Assembly: GCA_947173485.1 (NCBI GenBank)
Contig: CAMWFH010000001.1
Coordinates: forward strand, 248,001-312,000
Direction of reading: 5' to 3'
Length of the DNA: 64,000 nt
Source: an uncultured Clostridia bacterium
GTDB taxonomy: Bacteria > Bacillota > Clostridia > Oscillospirales > Oscillospiraceae
The position numbers were made by a program, and so were the translations under genes. Shown one piece after another: positions 32,888 through 47,768 of the stretch. Positions within the stretch are counted from its first letter, which is position 1. Every line of letters starts with the position of its first letter. Under the pieces are notes generated by a model, which saw nothing but the letters and a program-made list of their open reading frames with translations, searched no databases and had not been told where the DNA came from.

Positions 32888-33637
32888 TCATGAATTCCCC
32901 GCCTCCTCCAGCACCGTCTCCAGCACAAAGTCCGGGAAGCGCCGCCCTGCCGGGCAGGTCCGGCGGCCCGGTCCTGTCCCCAGCAGCTCCTCTCCTGGAA
33001 GGATGGCCACATCGGCGGCCAGGAGCATGGGGATGTCGATCACGCTGTCCCCGGCGCAGATCGTCCTTGTAGGCGCGAACCGGGCCCGGAGCCGTTCCAA
33101 GGCCGCGCCCTTGTGGATGCCTGGCGGGAAGAAGTACACCTTCCGCCCGGAGACTGCCGTCTCCAGCCCGGTGCTGCCCACAAAAAAAGCGCCCACTGCC
33201 GCCGCGTCCTCCGGCGTGTCGCAGGCCGCGAAGAGATAGGTCCCGTCTACGATCCGCCCCCGCTTTGGGACCGGTACCTCCGGCAAACGCCGCTCCAGCT
33301 CCAGGAGCGCCGGCTGCCAGGGGGCTGTCAGGGCCGCCGTCTCCGCCTGCCAGACCGGGTCCGGTATCCCATCGACCAGCAGCGTCCCACCGTTGGTGGT
33401 CACCGCGTACCGGGGCGGCTGGGGCCAGCGGATGCGGCGGTACTGCTGGATAGACCGGGTGGTGACGGGGACGAACAGCAGCCCCCTCTCCCCGATCGTC
33501 TCCAGCAGCCGGAGGGACCGCTGGGTACAGAACCCCTGCTCCCGCCCCTCCAGATGCTCCACACACTGGTCCGTCTCCTGCCGGTAACGGTGGGAGAACA
33601 GGATCGTATTGTCCAGGTCGCTGGCAAACAGCACCAT
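32888..33637 (-). CDS. HAD-family phosphatase of the Ter biosynthetic module
   Basis: 249 residues from ATG 33637 (GGAGG site ten bases away; GTG 33643 is an alternative). HAD motif I is FASDLDNTILF (nucleophile Asp in DLDNT), motif II is VTTRS and the C-terminal acidic motif is CAGDSVIDIPML. The DLDNT/GDS.ID pattern fits sucrose-phosphate/Cof-like HADs. In published analyses of Ter-linked operons (Anantharaman, Iyer and Aravind) a HAD enzyme accompanies PRTase and PELOTA proteins in the proposed synthesis of a nucleoside-like metabolite. Here it starts two bases after the PELOTA protein, the same order. Confidence 0.82.
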   Translation of the reverse strand: MVLFASDLDNTILFSHRYRQETDQCVEHLEGREQGFCTQRSLRLLETIGERGLLFVPVTTRSIQQYRRIRWPQPPRYAVTTNGGTLLVDGIPDPVWQAETAALTAPWQPALLELERRLPEVPVPKRGRIVDGTYLFAACDTPEDAAAVGAFFVGSTGLETAVSGRKVYFFPPGIHKGAALERLRARFAPTRTICAGDSVIDIPMLLAADVAILPGEELLGTGPGRRTCPAGRRFPDFVLETVLEEAGNS

Positions 33638-33639
33638 GG

Positions 33640-34683
33640 TCACATATCCTCCAGGGACCGGATCAGGCCGCAGGCCCGGTAACGCACCAGCGGATACACC
33701 AGCAGCTCCACGCCCTTCTCCCGCGCCAGCTGGTAGAGATGGCCCAGGTGGGCCTCGTCGTCCAGACTGCGCACCAGCACCTTCCAGGGCAGCCGCCGCA
33801 GCAGTACACGGGTGGCCTCCCCGATGCCGGGCTTGATCAGGTTCCGGTCCCGGATGCCGAACCGGGCGGCGATCTCCTCCACCTCCTCCAGGGCGGACTT
33901 GGCGCAGGGCCCCACCTCCGGGGCCGGACTGTCTGTCGAGAAGCAGGCGGCCACCGTGTCGATGAACTCGTAGGTCCGGTCCTGGTCCATCAGCTCCCGG
34001 TAGAAGGCCGCCCCGTGGAAGTCATTGGGGCCGATGATGTCCCCGCGGCAGAAGGTCCGGCTCAGCAGGCCGGACACCGTGGCGTTCAGGCAGGAGCTGG
34101 CGATCAGGAAGTCGTCCCCGGTCCCCCGCTTCTCCGCCAAGCCGCCGGGGTCCGACAGCACCGCCAGACCCGGATGGACGCCGGGATAGTCCGCCATGGC
34201 CTGCCGCAGCTCCCGCTGGATGGCCCCCTTCCCGGTCCAGCCGTCCACGAACTGGAGGCTCTCCGCCGGGTGGCGGGAGAGGATATAGTCCATGGCGTTG
34301 CGGTCGATGCCCCGGCCCCGGATGATGGAGATCGTGTAGTGGGGCAGCTCCAGGCCCCAGGTCTCCAGCAGATACCGCCGGATCAGGATCCCGATGGGCG
34401 TCCCCGCCCGGGCCAGGGAGACCAGCACGCCCCGGCCATCCCGCCGGATCTGGTCCGCCACTGCGGCCACCGCCGCCGCGGTCATGCCGGCATAGCGGGC
34501 CAGTGCGTTTTGATAGGCCGCCAGATAGGCATCGGAGGGGGCGTACTCGATGGGCAGCATCTCCGAGTAGTGGACGCCGCTCTGGATATACCGCTCCCGC
34601 TCCTTCGTCCCCAAGGGGACCACCAGGCCGGTGATATCCTTCAGCAGGATGGTGACATCCTGCTCTTTATATGTACCAAACAT
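33640..34683 (-). CDS. StiP/PRTase-fold protein with C-terminal PELOTA RNA-binding-like domain
   Basis: 347 residues from ATG 34683, overlapping the preceding gene by 17 bases. The N-terminal about 270 residues (LLKDITGLVVPLGTKERE ... VLVSLARAGTPIGILIRR, FVDGWTGKGAI) are the PRTase-like domain also called StiP. FVDGWTGKG occupies the place of the phosphoribosyl-binding loop. The C-terminal about 85 residues (LIKPGIGEATRVLLRRL, VELLVYPLVRYRACGLIRSL) match the PELOTA-type domain, thought to bind RNA or nucleotides. It is part of the Ter biosynthetic module. The substrate is unknown. Confidence 0.8.
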   Translation of the reverse strand: MFGTYKEQDVTILLKDITGLVVPLGTKERERYIQSGVHYSEMLPIEYAPSDAYLAAYQNALARYAGMTAAAVAAVADQIRRDGRGVLVSLARAGTPIGILIRRYLLETWGLELPHYTISIIRGRGIDRNAMDYILSRHPAESLQFVDGWTGKGAIQRELRQAMADYPGVHPGLAVLSDPGGLAEKRGTGDDFLIASSCLNATVSGLLSRTFCRGDIIGPNDFHGAAFYRELMDQDRTYEFIDTVAACFSTDSPAPEVGPCAKSALEEVEEIAARFGIRDRNLIKPGIGEATRVLLRRLPWKVLVRSLDDEAHLGHLYQLAREKGVELLVYPLVRYRACGLIRSLEDM

Positions 34684-35794
34684 CCCGGCCTCCCTGCATA
34701 TAGAAGAGCTTTTTCCAGCCGTCCCGGCCCCAGAGGGCGGCGATATCCGCCAAGGGGCCCTTGTCCTGGGACAGGGTATCCGACACCACCACCAGGGCGT
34801 CACAGGGGGCCATATCGTAGAGATAGGTCTCCCGGCCCGGCTGGTAGAAGCTGCGGATCTTCCCGCCGGCGGTAATGGGGTAGTCCGGGGCGTCACAGAT
34901 CCCGATGGGGCTCCGGGTGGTGGCGTGGCACCGGACCCGGTGCCCCCGCTCCTCCAGGAGACGCCCCAGGACCAGAGCGGGGTACATACACTCCTCCGTG
35001 CCCAGCACCACCAGGTCCCGGCACCCCTCCAGGGGCGCGCTCTCCATAAAGGCCAGGGCCGATGCCCGGCAGGCCGCCAGATAGTCCCGAATGGGGAGGC
35101 CCCGGCGGGGGTCCGGCAGGCCGGCACCGGGGAGGGCCATATGGGCCAGGGGCAGGGGCTCGCCGGTCACGGCGGGGGCCTCCGTGATGGACAGGGGGGC
35201 CACGGCGGCGGTGTAGTCCACCATGGGGAGCTTCACCAGGTGCTCCCGCCCCACGCCCGCCGCCTCCAGCCGCGCCTCGTTCTCCGGGGAGAGCCGGTCC
35301 AGCAGGGACGCCGCCACCAGCTCCTTCCCCGCCAGGGCCGGGCAGCGGGCGCGGAGCTGACGGACCATATTGAGGAGGGTCTTGCCGGTGGTGATCTCAT
35401 CGTCCACCAGCACGATGGTCTCCGCCGCCTCGATTCGCTCCGCCAGGCCGCCGCCCCAGAGCTTCTGCTCCACCGCGTGGCTATGTTCCTCCAGGAAGGT
35501 CACCCAGTCCCCTGCCCCCTCCTCCCGGGTGGTGGGGAGATAGACGCAGTCTGGGAAGAGGCTGGCCGCCGCCGCCCCCACCGCCGTGGCAGTCTCGGCA
35601 AAGGCGATGACCAGGCCCGTTTTCGGGTACCGCTCCCGCAGCCGCGCCCCCAGGGCCGCCATCATCTCCAGAGCCTCCGTGGGGCTGACGGGGATGTGCT
35701 TGGCCTGGAGGGGATCGACCAGGAGATAGGTCCGCTTGGTGTTATGGAAGCGTTTGGCGATCCGCAGCATATTTTCTTGAGAATAGATCGGCAT
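34667..35794 (-). CDS. Phosphoribosyltransferase-fold protein with TRSP domain
   Basis: 375 residues. The PRPP-binding motif is TIVLVDDEITTGKTLLNM, and an earlier loop FAETATAVGAAAA contacts the base side. The C-terminal about 150 residues (DLVVLGTEECMYPALVLGRL ... FYQPGRETYLYDMA) form the TRSP region that follows PRTase_2 domains. In Ter clusters this enzyme and the StiP/PELOTA protein are always paired, as here. The proposed role is transfer of a ribosyl phosphate group in making a nucleoside-like stress metabolite. That is a literature hypothesis. Confidence 0.82.
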   Translation of the reverse strand: MPIYSQENMLRIAKRFHNTKRTYLLVDPLQAKHIPVSPTEALEMMAALGARLRERYPKTGLVIAFAETATAVGAAAASLFPDCVYLPTTREEGAGDWVTFLEEHSHAVEQKLWGGGLAERIEAAETIVLVDDEITTGKTLLNMVRQLRARCPALAGKELVAASLLDRLSPENEARLEAAGVGREHLVKLPMVDYTAAVAPLSITEAPAVTGEPLPLAHMALPGAGLPDPRRGLPIRDYLAACRASALAFMESAPLEGCRDLVVLGTEECMYPALVLGRLLEERGHRVRCHATTRSPIGICDAPDYPITAGGKIRSFYQPGRETYLYDMAPCDALVVVSDTLSQDKGPLADIAALWGRDGWKKLFYMQGGRDVWYI

Positions 35795-35810: not shown

Positions 35811-36389
35811 TTAATACTGGCTCCGGGGGAGGCGGTCCTTCGCCACTCCGAAGCCGAAGGCGGTGCCGCAGGCCCCGCCTACGATGTGCATGAAGTTGGC
35901 CACGCTGTCCTTGACGAAGAGGATGGAGTAGACCTCCTGGCCCAGGTATAAGATCGCCACCAGCACCAGCGTCAGGGGGATCTTGCCGTCCTTCATGCCC
36001 GACAGGGACGCCAGCATGATCAGCATGAACACGATGCCGCTGGCCCCCAGCAGCGCCGCGTGGGGGAAGCAGATGAACTGGAGGAGGCCGGAGACCAGGG
36101 CCGTGAGGAGGATGCCTGTCAGCAGGGTGGCGCTGCCGTACTTCTCCTCCAGGGGCGGGCCCACTACCAGCAGCAGGAGCATGTTCCCCAGGAAGTGGTC
36201 CAGGTCGGCGTGGCCCAGGATATGTCCAAAAAAGCGCACATAGGTGAAGATATCCGTCAGCGGCGCCCGGTAGACGGAAAAGAAGGTCCAGGTGGTCCAC
36301 TTCTCCGTCACGGCCCCCAGCCCCAGCGCCACCAGGGACAGGAGGAAAAAGCTGAGGATCACCGGCGAGTTGTATTGCAGCTTCTTCAT
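35811..36389 (-). CDS. Rhomboid-family intramembrane serine protease
   Basis: 192 residues from ATG 36389. About six membrane helices. The HADLDHFLGNMLLLL motif supplies the HxxxxHxxxN element, the catalytic Ser is in LLGASGIVFML (GxSG) and a His lies in FMHIVGGACG. Rhomboids cut membrane helices of substrate proteins. The gene lies in the Ter cluster, 16 bases before the PRTase gene and after a hairpin that ends the P-type ATPase transcript, so it may head the second Ter transcript. A rhomboid is not a standard Ter component. Confidence 0.85.
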   Translation of the reverse strand: MKKLQYNSPVILSFFLLSLVALGLGAVTEKWTTWTFFSVYRAPLTDIFTYVRFFGHILGHADLDHFLGNMLLLLVVGPPLEEKYGSATLLTGILLTALVSGLLQFICFPHAALLGASGIVFMLIMLASLSGMKDGKIPLTLVLVAILYLGQEVYSILFVKDSVANFMHIVGGACGTAFGFGVAKDRLPRSQY

Positions 36390-36448: not shown

Positions 36449-39097
36449 TCAATTTTTCTTTGTGACTGCCTTTCGGATCAGGTCCACCGGGATCATGCTG
36501 GCGGCCAGGACCACCACCACGCACCAGCCCAGCACCGGGAAGGGCACACAGCTGAACATGTTCCCGATCCAGCCGAACACAGCCAGGGGGATCGCGCCGG
36601 CGTTGACGATCAGCGCCTGGACCAGGACGATGGTGACGAACACCTTCATAAAGCCGGTGTTCTCGTTCAGGCCCCGGAAGATGGCGAAGCCCTCGTCCCG
36701 GACGTTGAAGCCGTTGAACAGGGCGCTCCAGATGAACAGCACGAAGTAGGCGGAGAGCTTCTGCCCGACGGTGGGGAAGATCTGATCGAAGAGGGGCGCC
36801 TTCAGGAACACAAAGCTGAGGATCGTGAGCCATACGCCCATGGTGAGGATCTGCACCATCATGCTGCGGCTGACGATGCTCTCATCCCGCCGCCGGGGCT
36901 TCTCGGACATATACCGCTCCTTGGCCGGCTCGTTGCCCAGCATGATGGCCCCCAGGCCGTCCATGACCAGGTTGACGAAGAGCAGGTGGGTCACCTTCAG
37001 GGGCTCCTCCACCCCAAAGAAGGGGGCGATGGCGCTGACCACCACGGCGGCCACATTGATCACCAGCTGGAACTTGCAGAATTTCAGGATGTTGTGGTAA
37101 ATGGTCCGGCCATACCAGATGGCGTCCTTGATGGACTTGAAGTTGTCGTCCAGGATGACGATCTTCCCGGCCTCCTTGGCCGCCTCGGTGCCGCTGCCCA
37201 TGGCGAAGCCCACGTCGGCCCGCTTCAGAGCGGGGGAGTCGTTGACGCCGTCGCCGGTCATGCCCACCACCAGGTTCATCTCCTGGCACAGGCGCACCAT
37301 CCGGGACTTGTCCGTAGGCAGGGCCCGGGCGATGACCCGGATCTTGGGGATCACCGCCTTGACCTCCTCGTCGCTCATCTTGCTCAGCTGGCCGGAGGTC
37401 AGAGCCACGTCCTCCTCCGTCCGCAGCAGCCCGGCGTCCTTGGCGATGGCTACGGCGGTCTCCAGCCGGTCGCCGGTGATCATGACCACCTGGATGCCGG
37501 CGTTCTGGACCGCGGCGATGGCCTCCCGGGCCTCGGGCCGCACGTCGTCCCGGATGCCGAAGAAGCCGATGATGGTGGTGCCCTCCTGGATCTTGTTCTC
37601 CGTCATGGTCCCCTCGGCGTAGCCGAAGGCCAGGATCCGCATGGACTTGGCCGCCAGAGCGTCGATCTTCTCCGTGAGGGGGGCGGGATCGATGGCGTGG
37701 GCCGCCCCGTCCAGCCCCAGGTACTGCTTGGACACCGCCAGCAGCCGCTCCGGCGCGCCCTTATAGAAGGTCCGCCCCAGCTGGCCCAGGTAGGCCTGGC
37801 TGAACTTGTTGGCGGAGTTGAACCCCTGGGCCTGGGTGACGGTGTAGGCCCCCTCCAGCCGGTGGAACTCCTCCGCTCCCAGGAACTTCAGCAGCGCCTG
37901 GTCCGTGGCGTTGCCGCCGATGACCCGGCCCTCGCCGTCGAACATGGACTGGGTGTTCTTGCCGATCGCCAGGGAGAGCAGCTCCCGGATCTCCTTGTGC
38001 TGGGACAGCTCGCTGAGAGGGATGGACTTGCCGTCGGCAGTGAAGAACTCCACCACCTCCAGGCTGCCCTTGGTGATGGTGCCGGTCTTGTCGCTGAAGA
38101 GGATGTTCAGAGAGCCGGCGGTCTCGATGCCCTCGGCCTTCCGCACCAGGACGTTGTGGTCCAGCATCTTGCTGGTGTTCTGCATCAGCACCAAAGAGAT
38201 CATCAGCGGCAGCCCCTCGGGCACGGCGCAGACGATGATCACGATCGCCAGGGAGACCGCCTCCACGATGTCCTTGATGACCTCTGTGGCCCCGGTGGCG
38301 AAGTAGGCGCTAAAGCCGCCGGCGCTCACCACGAAGTAGCCAAAGTACAGCACGGCGATCACCACCGCGCCGATATACCCGAAGGTGGAGATCATATCCG
38401 CCAGCTTGGCCAGCTTGACCTTCAGAGGGGAATCCGGCTCCTCGCCCTGCATCTCCTCGGCCATCCGGCCCATCATGGTGGAAAGGCCCACCTTCTGCAC
38501 GTCCAGCACGCCCTCGCCGTCAAAGAGCACCGCTCCCCGGAAGAGGGAGTGGGCGTCCACGAAGGTATCGCCGGTGATCTCCTCCGGCAGGACGGCCCCC
38601 TCCGACGGGCTCTTGGGGCACTCCTCCGCCTCGCCGTTGAGGGCGGAGTTGTCCACCTTCAGCTCGCCATAGACCAGGACGCCGTCCGCCGGCACCTTGT
38701 CGCCGGACTGGAGGAGGACCTTGTCCCCCACCACCACGTCGTCCACGTCGATGACCGTCACCTGGCCGTTGCGGTAGGCCTTGCACTGGTCCTTCTTGGT
38801 GCTGTCCTTCAGCTCCCGGTACTTGGTGTCGCTGGCCACGCCGGTCTTGGCGGAGACGAAGGCCACGATCAGCACCGCCACGATGGTGCCCACCGGCTCA
38901 TAGATATCCGCGTAGCCGAAGAGCCACATCACGATCATCAGCGCCGCGATGGCCAGGAGGATCCGGATCATGGGGTCGCTGAAGGTCTCCTTGAATTCCG
39001 CCCAGAAGGTGGTCGGTTCGGAATCCGGGATCAGGTTGCTGCCGTATTTTTCTCTAGCGGCAGCTGCTTCTTTATCAGTCAGTCCTTTAAAGTGCAT
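36449..39097 (-). CDS. Calcium-type P-type ATPase
   Basis: 882 residues. Phosphorylation Asp336 in LFSDKTGTITKG; the actuator segment carries NGEAEECPK in place of the usual TGES, while TGDGVND and the membrane motif CAVPEGLPLMISL are present. The order of ten helices and PEGLP fit plasma-membrane/ER-type Ca2+ ATPases of bacteria, which expel calcium (or manganese) from the cytoplasm. It lies inside the Ter cluster between a TerD gene and the rhomboid gene, bounded by hairpins on both sides. It may therefore be expressed separately. TerD proteins bind calcium, which makes the pairing meaningful. Confidence 0.9.
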   Translation of the reverse strand: MHFKGLTDKEAAAAREKYGSNLIPDSEPTTFWAEFKETFSDPMIRILLAIAALMIVMWLFGYADIYEPVGTIVAVLIVAFVSAKTGVASDTKYRELKDSTKKDQCKAYRNGQVTVIDVDDVVVGDKVLLQSGDKVPADGVLVYGELKVDNSALNGEAEECPKSPSEGAVLPEEITGDTFVDAHSLFRGAVLFDGEGVLDVQKVGLSTMMGRMAEEMQGEEPDSPLKVKLAKLADMISTFGYIGAVVIAVLYFGYFVVSAGGFSAYFATGATEVIKDIVEAVSLAIVIIVCAVPEGLPLMISLVLMQNTSKMLDHNVLVRKAEGIETAGSLNILFSDKTGTITKGSLEVVEFFTADGKSIPLSELSQHKEIRELLSLAIGKNTQSMFDGEGRVIGGNATDQALLKFLGAEEFHRLEGAYTVTQAQGFNSANKFSQAYLGQLGRTFYKGAPERLLAVSKQYLGLDGAAHAIDPAPLTEKIDALAAKSMRILAFGYAEGTMTENKIQEGTTIIGFFGIRDDVRPEAREAIAAVQNAGIQVVMITGDRLETAVAIAKDAGLLRTEEDVALTSGQLSKMSDEEVKAVIPKIRVIARALPTDKSRMVRLCQEMNLVVGMTGDGVNDSPALKRADVGFAMGSGTEAAKEAGKIVILDDNFKSIKDAIWYGRTIYHNILKFCKFQLVINVAAVVVSAIAPFFGVEEPLKVTHLLFVNLVMDGLGAIMLGNEPAKERYMSEKPRRRDESIVSRSMMVQILTMGVWLTILSFVFLKAPLFDQIFPTVGQKLSAYFVLFIWSALFNGFNVRDEGFAIFRGLNENTGFMKVFVTIVLVQALIVNAGAIPLAVFGWIGNMFSCVPFPVLGWCVVVVLAASMIPVDLIRKAVTKKN

Positions 39098-39212: not shown

Positions 39213-39815
39213 TTACATATACCGGCCGACCAGCTCCCCGATCCCCGGGTCCGTGGTGCCCTGGCCGATGGCGTTGAACTTCCACTCCCCGTTGTGCCGG
39301 TAGACCTCGCCGAAGATCATGGCGGTCATGCCGTTGTAGTTCTCGGACAGGTTGTACCTGCACAGCTCCTGGTTGGTCCGGGCGTCTACGATGCGGATGA
39401 AAGCGTTCTGGATCATGCCGAAGTTCTGGTGGCGCTGGACAGCCTGGTAGATGGTCACCACCAGCACGATGCGGTCGTACTCTGCCGGGACCCGGGCCAA
39501 GTCGATGACGATCTGCTCATCGTCCCCCTCCCCGGTGCCGGTGAGGTTGTCGCCCATGTGGCGGACGGTGCCGGTGGAGTGGGTCAGGTTGTTGAAAAAG
39601 ACCACATCGCCCCGGTCCACCAGCTTCCCGCCCCGGAGCATGATTGCGGAGGCATCGCAGTCGATATCCTGGGTATTGCCGCCCCCCAGCAGGCCCCCAA
39701 AGAGTCCGCCCTTCTTCTGGACCTCGTCCCAGCCCAGGCCCACCACCACGGTGCTGAGGCCCGCGTTGTCCTTGGTCAGGCTGACCTTCTGGCCCTTTTG
39801 CAAACTAACAGACAT
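39213..39815 (-). CDS. TerD-family protein (divergent, with Gly-rich insert)
   Basis: 200 residues. The TerD fold is shown by [45 protein letters not shown] and [11 protein letters not shown]. It differs from the two orthodox copies: a Gly-rich insert (GGLFGGLLGGG) follows the first strand, and the calcium-site motif DLDAAA is replaced by DIDCDASA. TerD proteins bind calcium and associate with the membrane in tellurite, phage and stress resistance. This is the fourth of four Ter-family genes in a row. Confidence 0.88.
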   Translation of the reverse strand: MSVSLQKGQKVSLTKDNAGLSTVVVGLGWDEVQKKGGLFGGLLGGGNTQDIDCDASAIMLRGGKLVDRGDVVFFNNLTHSTGTVRHMGDNLTGTGEGDDEQIVIDLARVPAEYDRIVLVVTIYQAVQRHQNFGMIQNAFIRIVDARTNQELCRYNLSENYNGMTAMIFGEVYRHNGEWKFNAIGQGTTDPGIGELVGRYM

Positions 39816-39825
39816 ATCTCTCTCC

Positions 39826-40422
39826 TCACTTTCTGCCGGCCTGCCAGCGCAGGCCCCAATGGAAGGCGGCGTCCAGGGCCGGGTGGCCGGTGTAGAACTG
39901 GACGATCTTCTCCACGCTGAAGGTCTCGTCGTTGAGGTTCTCCAGCAGGACCAGGCCGCACATCCTGTCGTTGGAGTTGTAGGAATCCATCTTCACGATC
40001 AGGTCCTCCGCCCCGGGGTACTTGATGGTCACGGTGGCGTCGGCCTGCCGCCAGTTGGCCACGCCCTCATAGATGAAGGTGTACACCAGGATGCGCTTGA
40101 AGGTCCCGATCTTATTGCCGTCGATCCGCAGGTTCTCCCCCGCCGCCACCGCGCCGGTGCGGTCGTCGCCGTCCAGGGAGATATAGGGCGGCTGGGTCAG
40201 GGACCCGAAGGCGTTGCCCAGGGCCTGGACCACGCCCTTCCTGCCGTCCTTCAGCTCAAAGAGGCACCCTAAGTCCAGGTCGATGCCCTGGCCGCCGAAG
40301 ATGCCGCCCAGCAGCCCCTTGGGCTTGGCGTTCCAGTTCAGGTTGACCAGGATCTCGCCCAGGCCGGTCTGTCCGCCCTTTTTCAGGCTGACCTTCTTTC
40401 CTTTTTCCAGACTGATCGCCAT
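39826..40422 (-). CDS. TerA-like TerD-family protein
   Basis: 198 residues from ATG 40422. It begins like TerD (MAISLEKGKKVSLKKG) but has the TerA/TerF-type features DLDLGCLFELKDG and PPYISLDGDDRTG, the latter expected to bind calcium. A Gly-rich loop (GLLGGIFGGQG) resembles that of the neighbouring divergent TerD. The C-terminus departs from TerD. It sits five bases after one TerD gene and ten before the next, so it is clearly co-expressed. A structural or scaffold role in the membrane-bound Ter complex is known only in outline. Confidence 0.82.
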   Translation of the reverse strand: MAISLEKGKKVSLKKGGQTGLGEILVNLNWNAKPKGLLGGIFGGQGIDLDLGCLFELKDGRKGVVQALGNAFGSLTQPPYISLDGDDRTGAVAAGENLRIDGNKIGTFKRILVYTFIYEGVANWRQADATVTIKYPGAEDLIVKMDSYNSNDRMCGLVLLENLNDETFSVEKIVQFYTGHPALDAAFHWGLRWQAGRK

Positions 40423-40427
40423 GGCGC

Positions 40428-41009
40428 TCACCCCACTTCCACGCCGTAATTGGCGCACAGCGCCGCCAGGCCGCCCTGGTAGCCGCTGCCGATGGCGTTG
40501 AACTTCCACTCGCCGTTGTTCCTGTAGAGCTCGCCAAAGACCACGGCGGTCTCGATGGAGAAGTCCTCCCCCAAATCGTAGCGGAGGATCTCCTCGCCGG
40601 TGGCCTCGTTGACGATGCGGATGAAGGCGTTGGAGACCATGCCGAAGTTCTGCCGCCGCTCCTCTGCCTCATAGATGGTGACGGTGAAAGCGATCCGGGT
40701 GACGGTGTCGGGCACCTTGCTCAGGTCCACCTTGATCTGCTCATCGTCGCCATCGCCAACGCCGGTAAGGTTGTCGCCCAGATGCTCCACGCCGCCGGAG
40801 GCGTGCTTCAGGTTGCCGTAGAACACGAAGTCGCCGGAGCTGGACGCCCGGCCGCTGTCCCCCAGCAGGAAGGCAGCGGCGTCCAGGTCGAAGTCCCCGC
40901 CAGTGTCGAAGCTGTTCCGGTCCCAGCCCAAGCCCACCACCACTTTGGTCAGTCCAGGGTTATCCTTGGTCAGACTGACTTTCTGACCCTTTTTCAGATT
41001 GACAGGCAT
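40428..41009 (-). CDS. terD: TerD-family protein
   Basis: 193 residues. Orthodox Ter[32 protein letters not shown], calcium-site [28 protein letters not shown] and [12 protein letters not shown]. It is highly similar to the copy at 41027, which implies recent duplication. Calcium binding and membrane-linked stress resistance are family knowledge. The operon order (TelA, TerD, TerD, TerA-like, TerD) matches the Bacillus yce stress operon in spirit. Confidence 0.92.
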
Positions 41010-41026: not shown

Positions 41027-41608
41027 TTACGCAACGTCGATTCCGTAGTGGCCGCACAGCGCCGCCAGGCCCCCCTGGAAGCCGCTGCCCACGGCGTTGA
41101 ACTTCCACTCGCCGTTGTGGCGGTACAGCTCGCCCACCACGATAGCAGTCTCGATGGAGAAGTCCTCCCCCAGGTCGTAGCGGATCAGGTCCGTGCCGGT
41201 GACCATATCCTGGATGTGGATATAGGCGTTGGAGACCTGGCCGAAGTTCTGCCGCCGGGTCTCGGCGTCATAGATGGTGACGGTGAAGGCGATGCGCTCC
41301 ACGTTGGCGGGGATCTTAGAGAGCTCCACCACGATCTGCTCGTCGTCTCCGTCCCCCTCGCCGGTGAGGTTGTCGCCCATGTGCTTCACCGACTCGGTGG
41401 GGTGGACCAGGTTGCCATAGAAGATGAACTCCTTCTCCGTGGGGCACTTGCCGGAGCTGCCGACCATGAAGGCGGCGGCGTCCAGGTCGAAGGCCGCGCC
41501 GGAGTCGAAGGCGTTGACATCCCAGCCCAGGCCCACCACGATCTTGCTCAGCGACGCGTTCCCCTTGGTCAGGTCTACCTTTTGCCCCTTGGTCAGATTG
41601 ATCGCCAT
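41027..41608 (-). CDS. terD: TerD-family protein
   Basis: 193 residues from ATG 41608, chosen because GGAGG lies 8 bases upstream; a GTG/ATG-containing extension of five codons (MEETA) would bury that site. Orthodox motifs: [39 protein letters not shown] and [17 protein letters not shown]. It is a near copy of the next TerD gene. It follows TelA by 32 bases. Confidence 0.92.
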
Positions 41609-41640
41609 AGCTGTTTCCTCCATTTTGATTTAGTTGGGGT

Positions 41641-42774
41641 TTAGTTGGTGTCTGGCATATGATACCTTTTATTGAAGTCCGCCTTGATCGCTTCCAACCG
41701 CTTCTGGTCGTCCGCTCTCTGCTTGCGGGCATTCTCCTGGATACGGCGGGTCTCGTCGATACCGCTGACGATGGTCTGCCAGGTCTTCTCCAAGGTCTCG
41801 GTCTTGATGGAGCTGCCGGAGGCCAGCCGGGCGGTCATCTTGGACTGCTCCACGGTGTTCTGGGCGTTGCGCAGAAGCATCTCATTGGTCTTCTCGTCCA
41901 GGGCGGACATGGCCTCCGCCTGGATGCGCTGGCGCTTGAGCATGATCGCCTGGGTCAGGGCCTGCTTGAACACCGGCAGGGTGATGATGAAAGCGGAGTT
42001 GATCTTCCGCACCAGGTTCATATTGCTGAACTGCATGGTCTTGATCATGGGGATGGACTGCATGGCCACGTTCTCGGCGGTCCGCAGGTCCTGGGTCCGC
42101 TGCTCCAGCATCATCAGGGCCTGATTCAGGGTGGTCAGCTCGAACTGGATGGAGTTGTCCCCCGTGGCCTCCATGTCCCGCTGCCGCTGGGCTATATACG
42201 CCTCGATCTCCCGGCAGCCCTGCTCCCCGGCCAGGATATACTTCACCAGCTCGTGGTAGTAGCCCACGTTGGCCTGGAACATCTCCTCCAGCTTCCGGTT
42301 GGACTGCTTGATCTCGCTCTCGTACTGCTTCAGCTGCACATAGATCTTGTCCACCTCCTCGCCCATGGTGTGGTACTTGGCGAGGATCTTATCCAGCTGC
42401 CGGCGGAGGTTGCCGAAGAGCTTGCCCAGAAGGCCCGGCTCGTCCCGGATCTCATCCAGGTCGAACTTGTCCATGATCTTGGCCAGGGAGGTGAGCATGG
42501 CGCTGGAGTCGTCCAGCTGGGACATGTTCATGCTGTTCAGGACCGTGTCCGAGCACCTGGAGATCGCCTCCGCCGCGCCGGCGCCGAAGGTGACGATGGT
42601 CTCCAGGTCGTACACGTCCATCTGGCTGGCCAGGGCGTCCACCTCCGGGGAGTTGACCAGGGCCTTTGTCATCTGCTGCCGGTCGTCCACAACGTCATAT
42701 TGGGGGTAGTCCTCCTGCGCCGGCGCCAGGGTCAGCTCCGGCGTTGGGTCGGGTCTGCTGAGATCGATGCCCAT
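41641..42774 (-). CDS. telA: TelA-family toxic-anion resistance protein
   Basis: 377 residues from ATG 42774 (GGAAGGAG site 9 bases upstream), two bases after the preceding stop. It is helical throughout, with coiled-coil-prone stretches such as YVQLKQYESEIKQSNRKLEE and the TelA/KlaA-family core IPMIKTMQFSNMNLVRKINS. TelA (B. subtilis YceH) is linked to tellurite and cell-envelope stress resistance and usually accompanies YceG and TerD proteins, as here. Its biochemical role is unknown. No membrane segment is evident, so it is probably a cytoplasmic partner. Confidence 0.9.
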   Translation of the reverse strand: MGIDLSRPDPTPELTLAPAQEDYPQYDVVDDRQQMTKALVNSPEVDALASQMDVYDLETIVTFGAGAAEAISRCSDTVLNSMNMSQLDDSSAMLTSLAKIMDKFDLDEIRDEPGLLGKLFGNLRRQLDKILAKYHTMGEEVDKIYVQLKQYESEIKQSNRKLEEMFQANVGYYHELVKYILAGEQGCREIEAYIAQRQRDMEATGDNSIQFELTTLNQALMMLEQRTQDLRTAENVAMQSIPMIKTMQFSNMNLVRKINSAFIITLPVFKQALTQAIMLKRQRIQAEAMSALDEKTNEMLLRNAQNTVEQSKMTARLASGSSIKTETLEKTWQTIVSGIDETRRIQENARKQRADDQKRLEAIKADFNKRYHMPDTN

Positions 42775-42776
42775 AG

Positions 42777-45050
42777 TCAATGGCTCCTTCCGATTCCAAA
42801 TATCCGTCTGATAGGGTTCCGCTCCCGGTCCGGGAGCGCCGCGAAATTGGGGGGACGCAGGTCATACAGGTACTCGCCGATCTGCTGCTCGTTGGCGAAG
42901 GGGTGCTGGAAATGCCGCTCGATGCACTGGTAGCCCGTGGGCACGAAGAACAGGATATCGAAGCCCACCAGATTCAGGAACGCGAAGAGGATGCTGTCCT
43001 CCAGGGACAGTACCGCCTCTGTGGTACACAGCACCACCAGCTTGGGATTCTTCTTGGTGAAGTCGAACCTCTGGATCAGCCGCAGCAGCTCCTTATTGAG
43101 GTGGAGGGTGAGGACGGTGGAGATGATGGTATACTCCGTGCCGTTCTGATAGGTACCGGCGATGAGCCGCCGGTCCAGCAGCAGCTGGAGCTTATCCAGA
43201 AGGTGGTCCTGCATCTCCGGCCGCAGGATGCCGAAGGGGTAGTCCTTATGATTTTTGATCCGGTCCTTCAAAAGCCGCCCGTCCCGGAGGAACTGGGTGG
43301 CGCAGGCTCTCATCGGGTCAGGGGGACGGCGGGGATCCAGCCAGGGCAGGCTGTAGAGCAGGAGCGTATCCGGCGTCAGGAGCTTTTTGATGTCCAGCCA
43401 GTAGCGCTGGACGTCCCCGTCCTTCACGCCGCAGACCTTCTCCAGCAGCACCGGGACGGTCACCACGCCGTCCACCACCTGGAAGGTGGGCCGGTACTTC
43501 ACCTCCTGGTCCCAGAGGAGGGCGATCTCCTCATACATGGACCGGAGGGTGACGGTCTCGGCCTTGGCGTACTGCTGGCTGCGGTAGAGGCCCGTGTCCT
43601 GATACAGCGTGCCGTCCAGGTCCCGCTCCGCCTGGTAGGCGGCGGTGCTGACCCGGATCTGCCCCGCCTCCACCGGGAAGGCGTCCAGGGACAGCGATTC
43701 CTCCCGCCGCAGCTCCAGGAGGCTGGCATCTTGCAGGCAGCTCCCCCCGTTCAGGTCCGGCTGGAGCACCGCCACATCCACCGGCAGCCGGGCCAGCAGC
43801 CGCAGGAACCGGGCCTCATGGACGGTGGCGCAGGCGCCGAAATAGAGGAACACGCCGGTCTCCGGCATCTTCCACCGGTCGAACAGCTCCTTCTGATACC
43901 GCCGCAGCCAGCAGAGCAGGTAGACCGCGGCGTTGGTCATCCGGGGCAGGGTCTCCCGGCCGGCCTCCTCCAGCACGATATCCAGGAAGGCCCGGACCAT
44001 CAGCCGCTGGAGCTCCCCGCCGCCGGTGGCCTGGATATTCTTGGCCAACTCGCCGGCCAGCTGCTCCGGATCCCGGTAGGTCTGGCGGCGGATGGCGGCG
44101 ATCTCGTCCGGCGCGGGGAGGGGCAGGGGGGCGCTGGCCACGCAGATCCGCCGCTTCTCCGCCTTCAGGCGGCTGTAGAGGGCAAAGAGGCTGCCGGCAT
44201 AGGTCAGCTTATCCTCCACGCCGTACTGGGCGATAAAGGCGTTGTAAAAGAGGCCCGCCCCGTTCCCACGGGCCTGGACCGGGACCAGCAGCGACTCCAG
44301 GGAGGGCTTTTGCATCCAGGCGTTGGTACAGGGGGACACGCTGGGGGGCGCACCGTACAGCTGCTGCCGGTGCAGGTCCCGTCCGATCTCGCTCTGGATC
44401 TGCTTCAGGCTGAACTCCGGCGGGAAGGGCGTCAGCCCCTCGGCGGCATACAGCCGGGAACAGGCGGATGCGGGGTCCAGCTTGTCGTAGCCGCCGGTCC
44501 GGTCCAGCAGCAGGATATCGGCCCCGGCCTTGGACAGCAGGGTCAAAAATTGCAGCGCGTACTGGCTCAGGGCCCCGTCGTACAGGATCTTTGGGACCTC
44601 CTCCGCCCCCAGCCGGTTGACCATGCGCTCAAAACGGTAGTAGAGCCAGCACATATATTTCGTATAGGCGTTGCGCAGCATCCCCTCGTTCTTCCCCTGC
44701 CGGCCAAGCTCCGCCAGCAGGCCGGCCATGGCCTCGGCCACCGCCTCCCGCTGGGACACCGACATACGGGGCAGCCACCGCGCCAGCTGGGCAGAAAGAA
44801 AGGCCCGGTCCTGCCGGAACGCCGTCCCCATCATCTCGGAGAAGTAGCCCAGCTGGCGGGTGTCCGGGTTTTGGAGCTGCCCGTCGAGGACGACGCCGGT
44901 CTGCCGGGCCGCCTCGTAGTAGCGCTTGAGGAACGCCGTCACCTGGGGGGAGACGCCGGTCAGGCGGTAAAAGTAGACGCACCTGCCGGGCCTGCCGGAA
45001 AGGGGGACAAAATATCCGTCCAGTTTTTCCAATACCGCCTGTTGAAACAT
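42777..45050 (-). CDS. yceG: YceG-family protein of the Ter module (internally duplicated)
   Basis: 757 residues, larger than B. subtilis YceG (about 540). Conserved landmarks: NAYTKYMCWLYYRFERMV and LQFLTLLSKAGADILLLD (residues 124-185). The same pattern repeats at about 369-432 (AAVYLLCWLRRYQKELFDRW, FLRLLARLPVDVAVLQPD). Near the C-terminus are KKNPKLVVLCTTEAVLSLED and GFDILFFVPTGYQCIERH. The family is assigned to the Ter biosynthetic module and its activity is unknown. It is the first gene of the leftward operon, under the promoter at 45101-45129. A third copy of the repeated unit is found in the divergent protein at 46323. Confidence 0.82.
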   Translation of the reverse strand: MFQQAVLEKLDGYFVPLSGRPGRCVYFYRLTGVSPQVTAFLKRYYEAARQTGVVLDGQLQNPDTRQLGYFSEMMGTAFRQDRAFLSAQLARWLPRMSVSQREAVAEAMAGLLAELGRQGKNEGMLRNAYTKYMCWLYYRFERMVNRLGAEEVPKILYDGALSQYALQFLTLLSKAGADILLLDRTGGYDKLDPASACSRLYAAEGLTPFPPEFSLKQIQSEIGRDLHRQQLYGAPPSVSPCTNAWMQKPSLESLLVPVQARGNGAGLFYNAFIAQYGVEDKLTYAGSLFALYSRLKAEKRRICVASAPLPLPAPDEIAAIRRQTYRDPEQLAGELAKNIQATGGGELQRLMVRAFLDIVLEEAGRETLPRMTNAAVYLLCWLRRYQKELFDRWKMPETGVFLYFGACATVHEARFLRLLARLPVDVAVLQPDLNGGSCLQDASLLELRREESLSLDAFPVEAGQIRVSTAAYQAERDLDGTLYQDTGLYRSQQYAKAETVTLRSMYEEIALLWDQEVKYRPTFQVVDGVVTVPVLLEKVCGVKDGDVQRYWLDIKKLLTPDTLLLYSLPWLDPRRPPDPMRACATQFLRDGRLLKDRIKNHKDYPFGILRPEMQDHLLDKLQLLLDRRLIAGTYQNGTEYTIISTVLTLHLNKELLRLIQRFDFTKKNPKLVVLCTTEAVLSLEDSILFAFLNLVGFDILFFVPTGYQCIERHFQHPFANEQQIGEYLYDLRPPNFAALPDRERNPIRRIFGIGRSH

Positions 45051-45100: not shown

Positions 45101-45129
45101 ATTATAATACACCGCCTACGGGTTTTCAA
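45101..45129 (-). promoter_or_regulatory. Promoter of the leftward Ter operon
   Basis: On the minus strand, TTGAAA (45129-45124), a 17-bp spacer and TATAAT (45106-45101), 50 bases before the YceG start. It should drive yceG-telA-terD-terD-terA-like-terD. Confidence 0.82.
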
Positions 45130-45211: not shown

Positions 45212-45240
45212 TTCCCAAAGCGGCGGCTTTGTGCTATAAT
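45212..45240 (+). promoter_or_regulatory. Promoter of the rightward Ter genes
   Basis: A perfect TATAAT (45235-45240) with only a poor -35 (TTCCCA, 45212-45217) at 17 bp, 56 bases before the lyase start. It may need an activator. Confidence 0.55.
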
Positions 45241-45296: not shown

Positions 45297-46304
45297 ATGG
45301 ATCAGACCATCACCGGCTATGACGTCGGCCCCCTGCTCTACTGCCCCGCCAACGCCCACTGCAACATCGTGGACTGGCTCCGCGCCGGCCGCGTTGCCCC
45401 TCCCTTCTCCCTGGCCTTCTGTCTGGAGGACACCGTGGAGGAGGGCGCCGTCGCCGAGGCGGAGCAGACTCTGTTTCGTACTTTGACACGTCTGAAGGAC
45501 GCCTCCGCCCAAGAGGCGTTCTATATGCCCCCGGTCTTTATCCGCGTCCGCTCTCCCCGGCAGCTGCGCGCCCTGGCCTCCGCCTGCGCCGCCGCCTTCC
45601 CCGGTCTGGTGACGGGGTTCATCCTTCCAAAGTTCTTCGTCGCGAACGCCGGCGGCTATATCGCGGCCATCCAGGCCGTCCGGGAGGAGGCCGGCCGCTT
45701 CTATTATATGCCCATCCTGGAGGACCCAGCCATGATCGACCTCCGGTACCGGCACCGCCGCCTCTACCAGCTCCGGGACGCCCTGGAGGCCGTGTCGGAC
45801 CGCATCCTGAACATCCGCACCGGCGGGAACGACCTCTCCAACGCCTTCGGCCTGCGGCGGCAGGTCCACGACACCATCTACGACCTCCGTCCGGTGGCGG
45901 ATCTGCTGGCGGATATCGCCGCCGTCTTTGCCGGGCAGTATACCGTCTCCGGTCCGGTGTGGGAGTATTACGCCGGCAGCGGCTGGGAGGAGGGGCTCCG
46001 GCGAGAGACGGCGCTGGACGCGCTGTGCGGCTTCACCGGGAAGACCGTCATCCACCCCAACCAGATCCCGGTGGTCAACGACTGCCTCCGGGTCTCCGCC
46101 GCCGACTACCAGGACGCCCGCCGCATCCTGGACTGGGCCCCCGGCAGTCCCTGCCTGGTGGCCGCCAGCGCGGAGGGCACGCGTATGAACGAATACAACA
46201 CCCACCTCCGCTGGGCGGGCCGGACCCTCCGTCTGGCCCAGGTCTACGGCGTGAGGGACAGCGCCGGCCCCGCTGGACGCCAGCAGCCGTGCCGGCAGTC
46301 TTGA
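45297..46304 (+). CDS. HpcH/HpaI-like C-C bond lyase of the Ter module
   Basis: 335 residues. A TIM-barrel of the CitE/HpcH superfamily: LLYCPANAHCNIVDWL, acidic LAFCLEDTVEEGAV, FILPKFF (metal/CoA-side Lys), YMPILEDPAMIDLR, RTGGNDLSNAFGL and GKTVIHPNQIPVVND. The IHPNQI element is diagnostic of CitE-like lyases. In Ter operons a C-C bond lyase belongs to the biosynthetic module with the PRTases and the HAD. It starts the rightward transcript, divergent from YceG. Substrate unknown. Confidence 0.85.
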   Translation: MDQTITGYDVGPLLYCPANAHCNIVDWLRAGRVAPPFSLAFCLEDTVEEGAVAEAEQTLFRTLTRLKDASAQEAFYMPPVFIRVRSPRQLRALASACAAAFPGLVTGFILPKFFVANAGGYIAAIQAVREEAGRFYYMPILEDPAMIDLRYRHRRLYQLRDALEAVSDRILNIRTGGNDLSNAFGLRRQVHDTIYDLRPVADLLADIAAVFAGQYTVSGPVWEYYAGSGWEEGLRRETALDALCGFTGKTVIHPNQIPVVNDCLRVSAADYQDARRILDWAPGSPCLVAASAEGTRMNEYNTHLRWAGRTLRLAQVYGVRDSAGPAGRQQPCRQS

Positions 46305-46322: not shown

Positions 46323-47768
46323 ATGAACGAGCAGCGCTTTCAAACCGCCCTCAAAGTCCCCTCCGGCAACGCGCTGGAGGACCTGATGCTCCGCAGCGGC
46401 CCCTATACCGGTCCTGTCAAGGAGACCTTCTTCATCCGCTATCCCGCCGGCCCCAGCCTCCAGCAAGACCATGCCGCCCTCCGGGCCTGGCAGGGGCCGG
46501 GGCGCGTCTTCGTGCCGGCGCTGAAGGGCCTGTCCCCCGGGGAGGCCGAGCGCTACATTGCCCTTTACGGCAGCGGCCAGCTCCCCTTCCGCTTCGCCAA
46601 CGCCCTCTGGCAGGAGGCCCTCACGGACGCCTATGCCGCCGTGATAGAGCAATTCAAAAAGAGCCGGGGCCGCAGCGAGGAGGCCATCGTCCGCAACTTC
46701 TCCGTGAAGATGCTCTGCTGGATCGACGCCTATCTCCCCCAGCTGTTCCCGGAGACCGGGAAGCCGGCCCAGTTCCCCAAGTTCCTCTGCGGCGGCGGTG
46801 TCCGGCTGGCGGAGTATCTGTTCTTATACCTGCTGTTCCGCTTAGGCTGTGACGTGCTGTACATAAGCGACGGCAGGGAGCCCCAGGACCCGGCCCTGCT
46901 GGCGCTGTCCACACCGGTGACCGCCCAGCCGCTCCCCTATCCGCCGGAGGCCCCCTCTGCCGTCCCCAGGGCGCCCCGGCAGGCCCAGCCCGCCCCGGCG
47001 GGCGCGGACAGCCGGGTGGTGATCTCCATGGACCGCCTCCGGCGGCCGGAGCGCCATGTCCCGCCGCCTGCCCCGGCCAGCCCGCCGGCCCGGCCGGCGG
47101 CTACCGTCCGGCCCCCGGTACAGTCCCCCCGGACGCCGCCGGTCTCAAGGGCGCCGGTGGTCTCCGCCGCCCATCCGGGCCGGACGGGCCAGCGGCGGAC
47201 GCTGGAGTTCGAGGAGCTGGCCCGGTTCGCCTCCTCCGTGGTGATGCTGAAGGTGTTCGACCAGAACGACCAGTGCTTCAAGTCCGGCTCCGGCGTCATC
47301 ATCAACGAGCGGGGCTATGTGCTCACCAACCTCCATGTGGTCAACGGAGGCCGGTACTACGGCATCCTGCTGGAGGAGGAGACCAGCGTCTTTTACACCG
47401 ACGAGCTGATCAAGTACCACCAGGACTACGACCTGGCTGTCCTTCGGATGGACAAGCGCCGCCAGCCGATCCCCCTCTCCATTGGGGGCCAGAAGCTGGT
47501 CCGGGGGCAGAAGGTGGTGGCCATCGGCAGCCCCCTGGGGCTGTTCAACACCGTCTCCGACGGCATCATCTCCGGCTTCCGGCAAATGGAGAAGGTCTCC
47601 ATGATCCAGTTCACCGCCCCTGTCTCCCACGGCAGCAGCGGCGGCGCCCTTCTGGATATGCACGGGGAGCTGATCGGTCTGATCACCGCCGGCTACGACG
47701 ACGGGCAGAACCTGAACCTGGCAGTGGACCGGGAGAGCATCCTCCGCTTCGTCCGGGGACTGCTGTGA
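46323..47768 (+). CDS. YceG-like module fused to trypsin-like serine protease
   Basis: 481 residues. Residues 121-182 (NFSVKMLCWIDAYLPQLF, KFLCGGGVRLAEYLFLYLLF, LGCDVLYIS) reproduce the repeated unit of the YceG-like protein at 42777. A long Pro-rich linker (about 200-285) leads to a DegP/trypsin-like protease domain (about 295-481) with the catalytic triad His338 (VLTNLHVVNGG), Asp370 (YDLAVL) and Ser439 (HGSSGGALLD). No signal peptide or membrane helix is seen and no PDZ domain follows, so this looks like a cytoplasmic protease tethered to the Ter complex. The fusion strongly implies a physical role in that complex. Confidence 0.85.
   Translation: MNEQRFQTALKVPSGNALEDLMLRSGPYTGPVKETFFIRYPAGPSLQQDHAALRAWQGPGRVFVPALKGLSPGEAERYIALYGSGQLPFRFANALWQEALTDAYAAVIEQFKKSRGRSEEAIVRNFSVKMLCWIDAYLPQLFPETGKPAQFPKFLCGGGVRLAEYLFLYLLFRLGCDVLYISDGREPQDPALLALSTPVTAQPLPYPPEAPSAVPRAPRQAQPAPAGADSRVVISMDRLRRPERHVPPPAPASPPARPAATVRPPVQSPRTPPVSRAPVVSAAHPGRTGQRRTLEFEELARFASSVVMLKVFDQNDQCFKSGSGVIINERGYVLTNLHVVNGGRYYGILLEEETSVFYTDELIKYHQDYDLAVLRMDKRRQPIPLSIGGQKLVRGQKVVAIGSPLGLFNTVSDGIISGFRQMEKVSMIQFTAPVSHGSSGGALLDMHGELIGLITAGYDDGQNLNLAVDRESILRFVRGLL

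Follow-up and report, generated by a model that had tools for sequence, protein, structure and literature searches.

Ter systems, the long-enigmatic tellurite-resistance machinery, have been described from biosynthetic and chemical-stress neighbourhoods that encode TerD, TelA, YceG, a C-C lyase, PRTase_2-TRSP, StiP-PELOTA and a HAD protein. The description of Ter components in the available portion of PMC7824862 makes no mention of proteases. The system has been tied to stress: deletion of yceGH was reported to cause sensitivity to reactive oxygen species (PMC6813211, available excerpt), and C. difficile makes more TerD when exposed to metronidazole (PMC6262375, available excerpt).

Coupling of a Ter protein to a protease is not unprecedented, because a TerD-trypsin fusion of Pseudomonas syringae (YP_273108.1) was listed in 2008, in the accessible part of PMC2605481. 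Going by its description there, that protein resembles the one treated here in that a Ter-system domain lies N-terminal to a trypsin-like protease, but it carries TerD, not YceG, and only one such protein was listed. Trypsin-like effectors of conflict systems (VMAP systems, RT-Protease and LmuA) also join a peptidase to sensing or adaptor domains, as the excerpted part of PMC7159879 has it; their partner domains are unrelated to YceG, and the likeness is confined to the protease.

The window analysed here, that is, the whole stretch of 64,000 nucleotides, has all the Ter components named above in common with the described neighbourhoods, and adds to them a YceG-protease fusion, a rhomboid and a P-type cation ATPase. 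The original prediction placed such a protease outside the usual description of Ter systems. This stands for the pairing of YceG with an S1C protease, which we did not find as a conserved Ter component in the open-access literature (most subscription papers lie outside it), and needs qualifying for Ter-linked proteases at large in view of the protein listed in 2008. The parts are familiar; their conserved combination has, as far as we have seen, not been described. The same domain pair recurs in many Firmicutes, so proteolysis appears to be a regular component of Ter systems that has received little description.

The Ter locus and the fusion gene

On the minus strand, the genes run in the order YceG, TelA, four TerD-type genes, P-type ATPase, rhomboid, PRTase_2-TRSP, StiP-PELOTA and HAD. 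The multi-domain YceG (42777-45050) matches PF14266 in three stretches (E 6.8e-95) and is followed by TelA (41641-42780; PF05816, E 1.2e-103). Among the TerD-type genes, those at 41027-41623 and 39213-39815 match PF02342, the one at 40428-41009 clusters with TerD and is also recognised by HMM, and the TerD-like gene at 39826-40431 matches PF02342 when read as the longer frame 39826-40509 (E 1.1e-07). Further along are the P-type cation (Ca2+-like) ATPase (36449-39097; PF00122, PF00689 and PF00690), the PRTase_2-TRSP gene (34667-35770) and the StiP-PELOTA_1 gene (33640-34683), the last two assigned by domain matches, and the HAD hydrolase (32888-33643; PF08282, E 2.8e-06). Pfam thus bears out the earlier reading of the neighbours as Ter-cluster YceG, TelA and TerD, and extends it to the C-C lyase, PRTase_2-TRSP, StiP-PELOTA and HAD genes.

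Divergent from YceG, the plus strand carries the C-C_Bond_Lyase gene (45297-46304; PF15617, E 6.5e-86) and, after a gap of 18 bases, the fusion gene (46323-47768), whose ATG is preceded by the ribosome-site-like AGGGAGG. The space between YceG and the lyase holds promoter-like sites in both directions, which are consensus matches only: a sigma-70-like site before the lyase-protease pair (45212-45240, plus strand, 10/12) and a divergent one before YceG (45101-45129, minus strand, 11/12). Since the two plus-strand genes are 18 bases apart on the same strand and a promoter-like site stands before the lyase, they are probably co-transcribed.

Domain architecture and the YceG domain

The fusion gene is a single open frame that encodes 481 amino acids before its stop codon. 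Pfam finds YceG_bac (PF14266) at residues 93-181 (E 1.7e-12, 48 bits against a curated cut-off of 25) and Trypsin_2 at residues 322-453 (E 9.3e-25, also above its curated cut-off). Profile-profile alignment by hhalign matches residues 17-186 to positions 9-186 of the YceG encoded nearby (E 5.6e-11); by this homology the N-terminal part, about 200 residues long, is a complete YceG domain of the first-domain type. The original prediction had seen the YceG homology correctly and its extent too narrowly, having placed the core at residues 121-182, where the whole domain spans residues 1-200 (46323-46922, plus strand).

AlphaFold2, run on the full protein with 74 aligned sequences, predicts confident domains at residues 1-200 and 293-481, with a disordered stretch at about 201-291 between them; the YceG domain folded alone reaches a pLDDT of 93.7 and a pTM of 0.92. 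The linker (residues 201-292; 46923-47198) is rich in Pro, Ala, Ser, Gln and Thr, poorly conserved, and has a pLDDT below 50 at 206-249 and 251-287. Across the 91 rows of the fusion family, defined below, its length, taken as the gap between HMM envelopes, is 25-158 residues with a median of 79.

The fusion has a single YceG domain plus the protease, whereas YceG itself (PF14266, the partner of TelA) has several YceG domains, and it is with the first of these that the N-terminal domain aligns. Seventeen positions are kept by 85% or more of the fusion YceG domains, and 12 of the 17 hold the majority residue of YceG domain 1, F37, R39, N125, K129, W133, K153, E164, L171, G175 and D177 among them. 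Because of this agreement the domain looks functional, not a relic, and it probably does what the corresponding domain of YceG does.

Comparison of folds gave the YceG domain no confident relative. With Foldseek, no PDB chain came within E 0.001 of its predicted structure; a second comparison listed ATPase chains, AAA+ and ABC among them, at Z of 6.9 or less, which is the range of a common arrangement, so we make no claim of nucleotide binding.

The protease domain and its cellular location

The S1C (HtrA/DegS-type) serine protease domain occupies residues 293-481 (47199-47765, plus strand). Its catalytic residues, His338 (47334-47336), Asp370 (47430-47432) and Ser439 in the motif GSSGG (47637-47639), do not vary in any of the 74 aligned members, as the earlier assignment of a serine protease with this triad, now backed by the Trypsin_2 match, would lead one to expect. 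Two relatives (L102 and L119) have DLS instead of DLA as the Asp motif and retain the Asp. By Foldseek the domain matches Deg1 (3qo6; E 2.8e-17, and E 3.4e-22 by sequence), the S1C domain of RsgI9 (7sjy; E 2.6e-16) and DegS delta-PDZ (2rce; TM-score 0.81 on the target).

The protease fold and triad are thus held in common with HtrA/Deg proteins such as DegS, DegP/DegQ, Deg1 and the RsgI9 S1C domain. PDZ domains are docking modules in other HtrA proteins. Unlike these, the fusion has no PDZ, export signal or membrane anchor, carries a YceG domain at its N-terminus, and falls below every NCBIfam HtrA cut-off (it scores 113.5 bits with the Do family, where 416.2 are required). Pfam gives no PDZ up to E 1, and in the AlphaFold2 model the protease domain ends the chain.

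On a simple hydropathy scale, the highest 15-residue value within the first 60 residues is 0.51, and the other 90 rows of the family stay at or below 1.67, so that no export signal or membrane anchor is seen by this measure. Among the 20 nearest proteases examined from outside the family, 18 have a signal- or membrane-like segment (hydropathy above 2.2) before the protease; the exceptions are L009, with no such segment, and L017 (1.26). Because it is without a hydrophobic signal or membrane segment, the enzyme is most simply taken to be cytosolic. The original prediction that signal peptide, membrane helix and PDZ are all missing agrees with both the hydropathy and the Pfam results.

Distribution of the fusion

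In a sample of 400 genomes of the same family, YceG is encoded in 17, and 11 of these, the window's genome included, also have the fusion; none of the 383 genomes lacking YceG has it (Fisher test, 1.4e-17, ignoring kinship between genomes). The six YceG-bearing genomes without the fusion are G030, G050, G056, G313, G321 and G392, although G050, G056 and G313 are fragmented or less than 95% complete. Since 6 of 17 do without it, the Ter system can run without the fusion. In an order-level sample of 394 genomes, which overlaps with the family sample, 13 match the YceG-domain profile, 10 of them through the fusion and three through YceG alone. At the level of the phylum, 18 of 398 genomes match at E 1e-40; only three of these matches, that of the window's own genome included, are full-length, and the other 15 cover the protease region only.

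Ten family relatives carry the fusion, and in most of them the gene follows HAD at the end of the Ter operon; the window differs from them in that its fusion gene follows the C-C lyase. Genes in the family loci were called by a codon-usage score, as the longest frames are misleading where G+C-rich DNA holds long antisense frames, and those of the A+T-rich locus L064 were read by HMM instead.

The wider distribution was followed by a pattern scan of the genomes of 84,980 species, which gave 346 stretches and 284 relatives, of which the best 80 were examined. Both domains and the triad are present in 80 of these best 80, a count that is partly built in, as the peptide patterns used for the scan lie in the protease. 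For this reason, searches with the YceG domain only, in the 400 and 394 genomes, serve as the independent test: all their matches are either YceG itself or the fusion, and every match that is not YceG is joined to the protease. Together, the window, the 10 family loci and the best 80 of the 284 relatives make up 91 rows, or 85 distinct loci after six duplicated contigs are allowed for. Recurrence of the two-domain architecture in 85 distinct loci is far above chance. The predicted fusion is therefore real: it is a single frame, both of its domains exceed the Pfam cut-offs, and it recurs across these loci.

By their labels, the relatives include Oscillospiraceae, Lachnospiraceae, Peptococcaceae, Desulforamulus, Desulfosporosinus, Lysinibacillus, Cytobacillus and Metasolibacillus; some are from metagenome-assembled genomes labelled Fusobacteriaceae and Aeromonadales, labels that may be wrong. 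It had been suggested that the fusion be sought near the Ter genes of other Clostridia, and far from being absent from all related Ter loci, it recurs in many. At least one of TerD, TelA, YceG, C-C lyase, PRTase_2 and StiP flanks it in 66 of the best 80 of 284 relatives. Within 2.5 kb, the commonest neighbour in this set is a C-C lyase upstream in opposite orientation (33/80); downstream on the same strand, YceG and a rhomboid are found 17 times each among the 80. These counts hinge on contig ends, and with many loci cut, absence of a gene is weak evidence.

The other 14 of the best 80 have no Ter gene in the flank and are mostly from Bacilli and the Desulfo- genera; a separate YceG is encoded elsewhere in 13 of the 14 genomes, the exception being L137. 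In Lysinibacillus, Cytobacillus and Desulforamulus the fusion gene stands alone, YceG being in most cases encoded at another place in the genome, and no conserved neighbours surround it among ten such loci compared. Operon linkage of the fusion to Ter genes is thus not universal. Nine solitary loci from Bacilli, Desulfo- genera or related taxa (L097, L105, L111, L117, L118, L129, L134, L140 and L145) are separated from YceG by tens of kb or lie on another contig.

Selection and comparison with conflict-system effectors

Ten close pairs give dN/dS values of 0.09-0.22 for the whole gene, 0-0.08 for the protease and 0.09-0.25 for the YceG domain. The distance matrices of the two domains correlate with r 0.83, a value reached in 0 of 2000 permutations. 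Both domains are under purifying selection and evolve jointly, and because their distances correlate so closely, the data fit one old fusion whose domains appear to have been kept together since.

The solitary copies in Bacilli and the Desulfo- genera would suit a housekeeping intracellular protease that hitchhikes beside Ter genes, with the YceG domain as a neutral relic. We consider this very improbable, as the fusion never occurs without YceG in the 400-genome family sample, the conserved residues of its YceG domain agree with YceG domain 1, and purifying selection acts on that domain.

We give more weight, while still finding it doubtful, to a signal-gated effector, in which the YceG domain would sense a nucleoside-like Ter product and free the protease to act on essential proteins, halting a cell attacked by phage or toxin. 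Trypsin-like peptidases are effectors in conflict systems, where TerD has been proposed as a sensor of nucleotide derivatives (PMC7159879, in the portion available), and the Ter biosynthetic enzymes are said to make a threat signal (PMC7824862, likewise in part). The TerD-trypsin fusion offers a precedent, and the top PADLOC matches are RT-Protease_XI (E 5.7e-16) and LmuA (2.9e-06). Both cover the protease part only; in this comparison no known effector family is matched over the full length. Pairwise identity also speaks against an effector: the protease is the most conserved part of the protein (mean 0.637, against 0.292 for the YceG domain and 0.157 for the linker), unlike typical effectors, which are exchangeable, and the output domain is never exchanged in the fusions found. 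Moreover, the gene is retained on its own in Bacilli, and of the 882 plasmid and 18 phage records with a match none covers 80% of the fusion; among the matches listed it is only the protease part that is covered.

Proposed mechanism

The reading that we prefer, at a probability of about 45%, is an intracellular HtrA-like protease in which the YceG domain has replaced PDZ, docks the enzyme to the Ter machinery and lets it cut stress-damaged or Ter-associated proteins. It builds on the architecture, the triad, the lack of an export signal, the linkage and the selection, all of which are observed. What we infer about recruitment, activity and substrate runs as follows. The YceG domain, in the place of PDZ, would dock the enzyme onto the membrane Ter complex through the partner or ligand of YceG itself, and the long flexible linker would give the protease reach to clients near that complex. 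Under chemical or oxidative stress, the protease might then cut damaged or adducted proteins, or Ter components, which would serve quality control or reset the complex. By analogy with other HtrA enzymes, docking or a Ter metabolite may flip the enzyme from a resting to an active state.

An HtrA-type protease of this kind points to an intracellular enzyme with PDZ swapped for another docking domain. It also provides a handle on Ter protection, as the enzyme joined to the YceG domain is conserved and of a recognisable type whose activity can be assayed: a catalytically dead Ser-to-Ala form could be used to trap substrates, and the YceG domain to fish for the ligand or partner that it binds.

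The rhomboid and accessory genes of the locus

The rhomboid intramembrane protease gene (35811-36389, minus strand; PF01694, E 1.2e-16) lies between the P-type ATPase and PRTase_2-TRSP, within the Ter operon. Twelve listed copies, read by eye, retain GASG and a later His-containing motif. A search of the open-access literature for "TerD" and "rhomboid" together returned no paper, and we found no description of a Ter rhomboid there. Among loci with fusion, TerD, TelA and YceG, 21 of 43 have the rhomboid.

These observations raise the idea of a membrane relay, in which the operon's rhomboid would release or trim a membrane protein and the YceG-protease would complete the cut or degrade the product, as a signalling or turnover branch of Ter. 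Its presence in the window's own operon and in about half of the 43 loci speaks for such a relay, as does the finding that in 17 of the best 80 of 284 relatives it is the nearest scored downstream gene on that strand. Yet it is not seen in the other 22 of the 43, and L064 has the fusion without the rhomboid while L070 and L071 have the rhomboid without the fusion; since each of these loci has one only, the two genes are separable. We regard the relay as unlikely, less so than mere hitchhiking.

Returning to the Ter-docked HtrA-like protease, its tentative extension is that Firmicutes Ter systems possess a dedicated proteolytic arm, made up of the YceG-addressed HtrA-like enzyme and often a rhomboid, which the Ter complex or its metabolite would activate. 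We think this possible rather than probable; if it were true, turnover of proteins at the membrane would be a main output of the tellurite-resistance machinery.

Two further features of these loci were noted. Another Ter variant, with a tandem-TerD-like protein and one of about 290 amino acids whose family is unassigned (clusters c10 and c11) and without the fusion, is found in four genomes of the family, at L066, L067, L068 and L069. The P-type cation ATPase is matched by HMM in the flanking DNA of 46 of the best 80 of 284 relatives.
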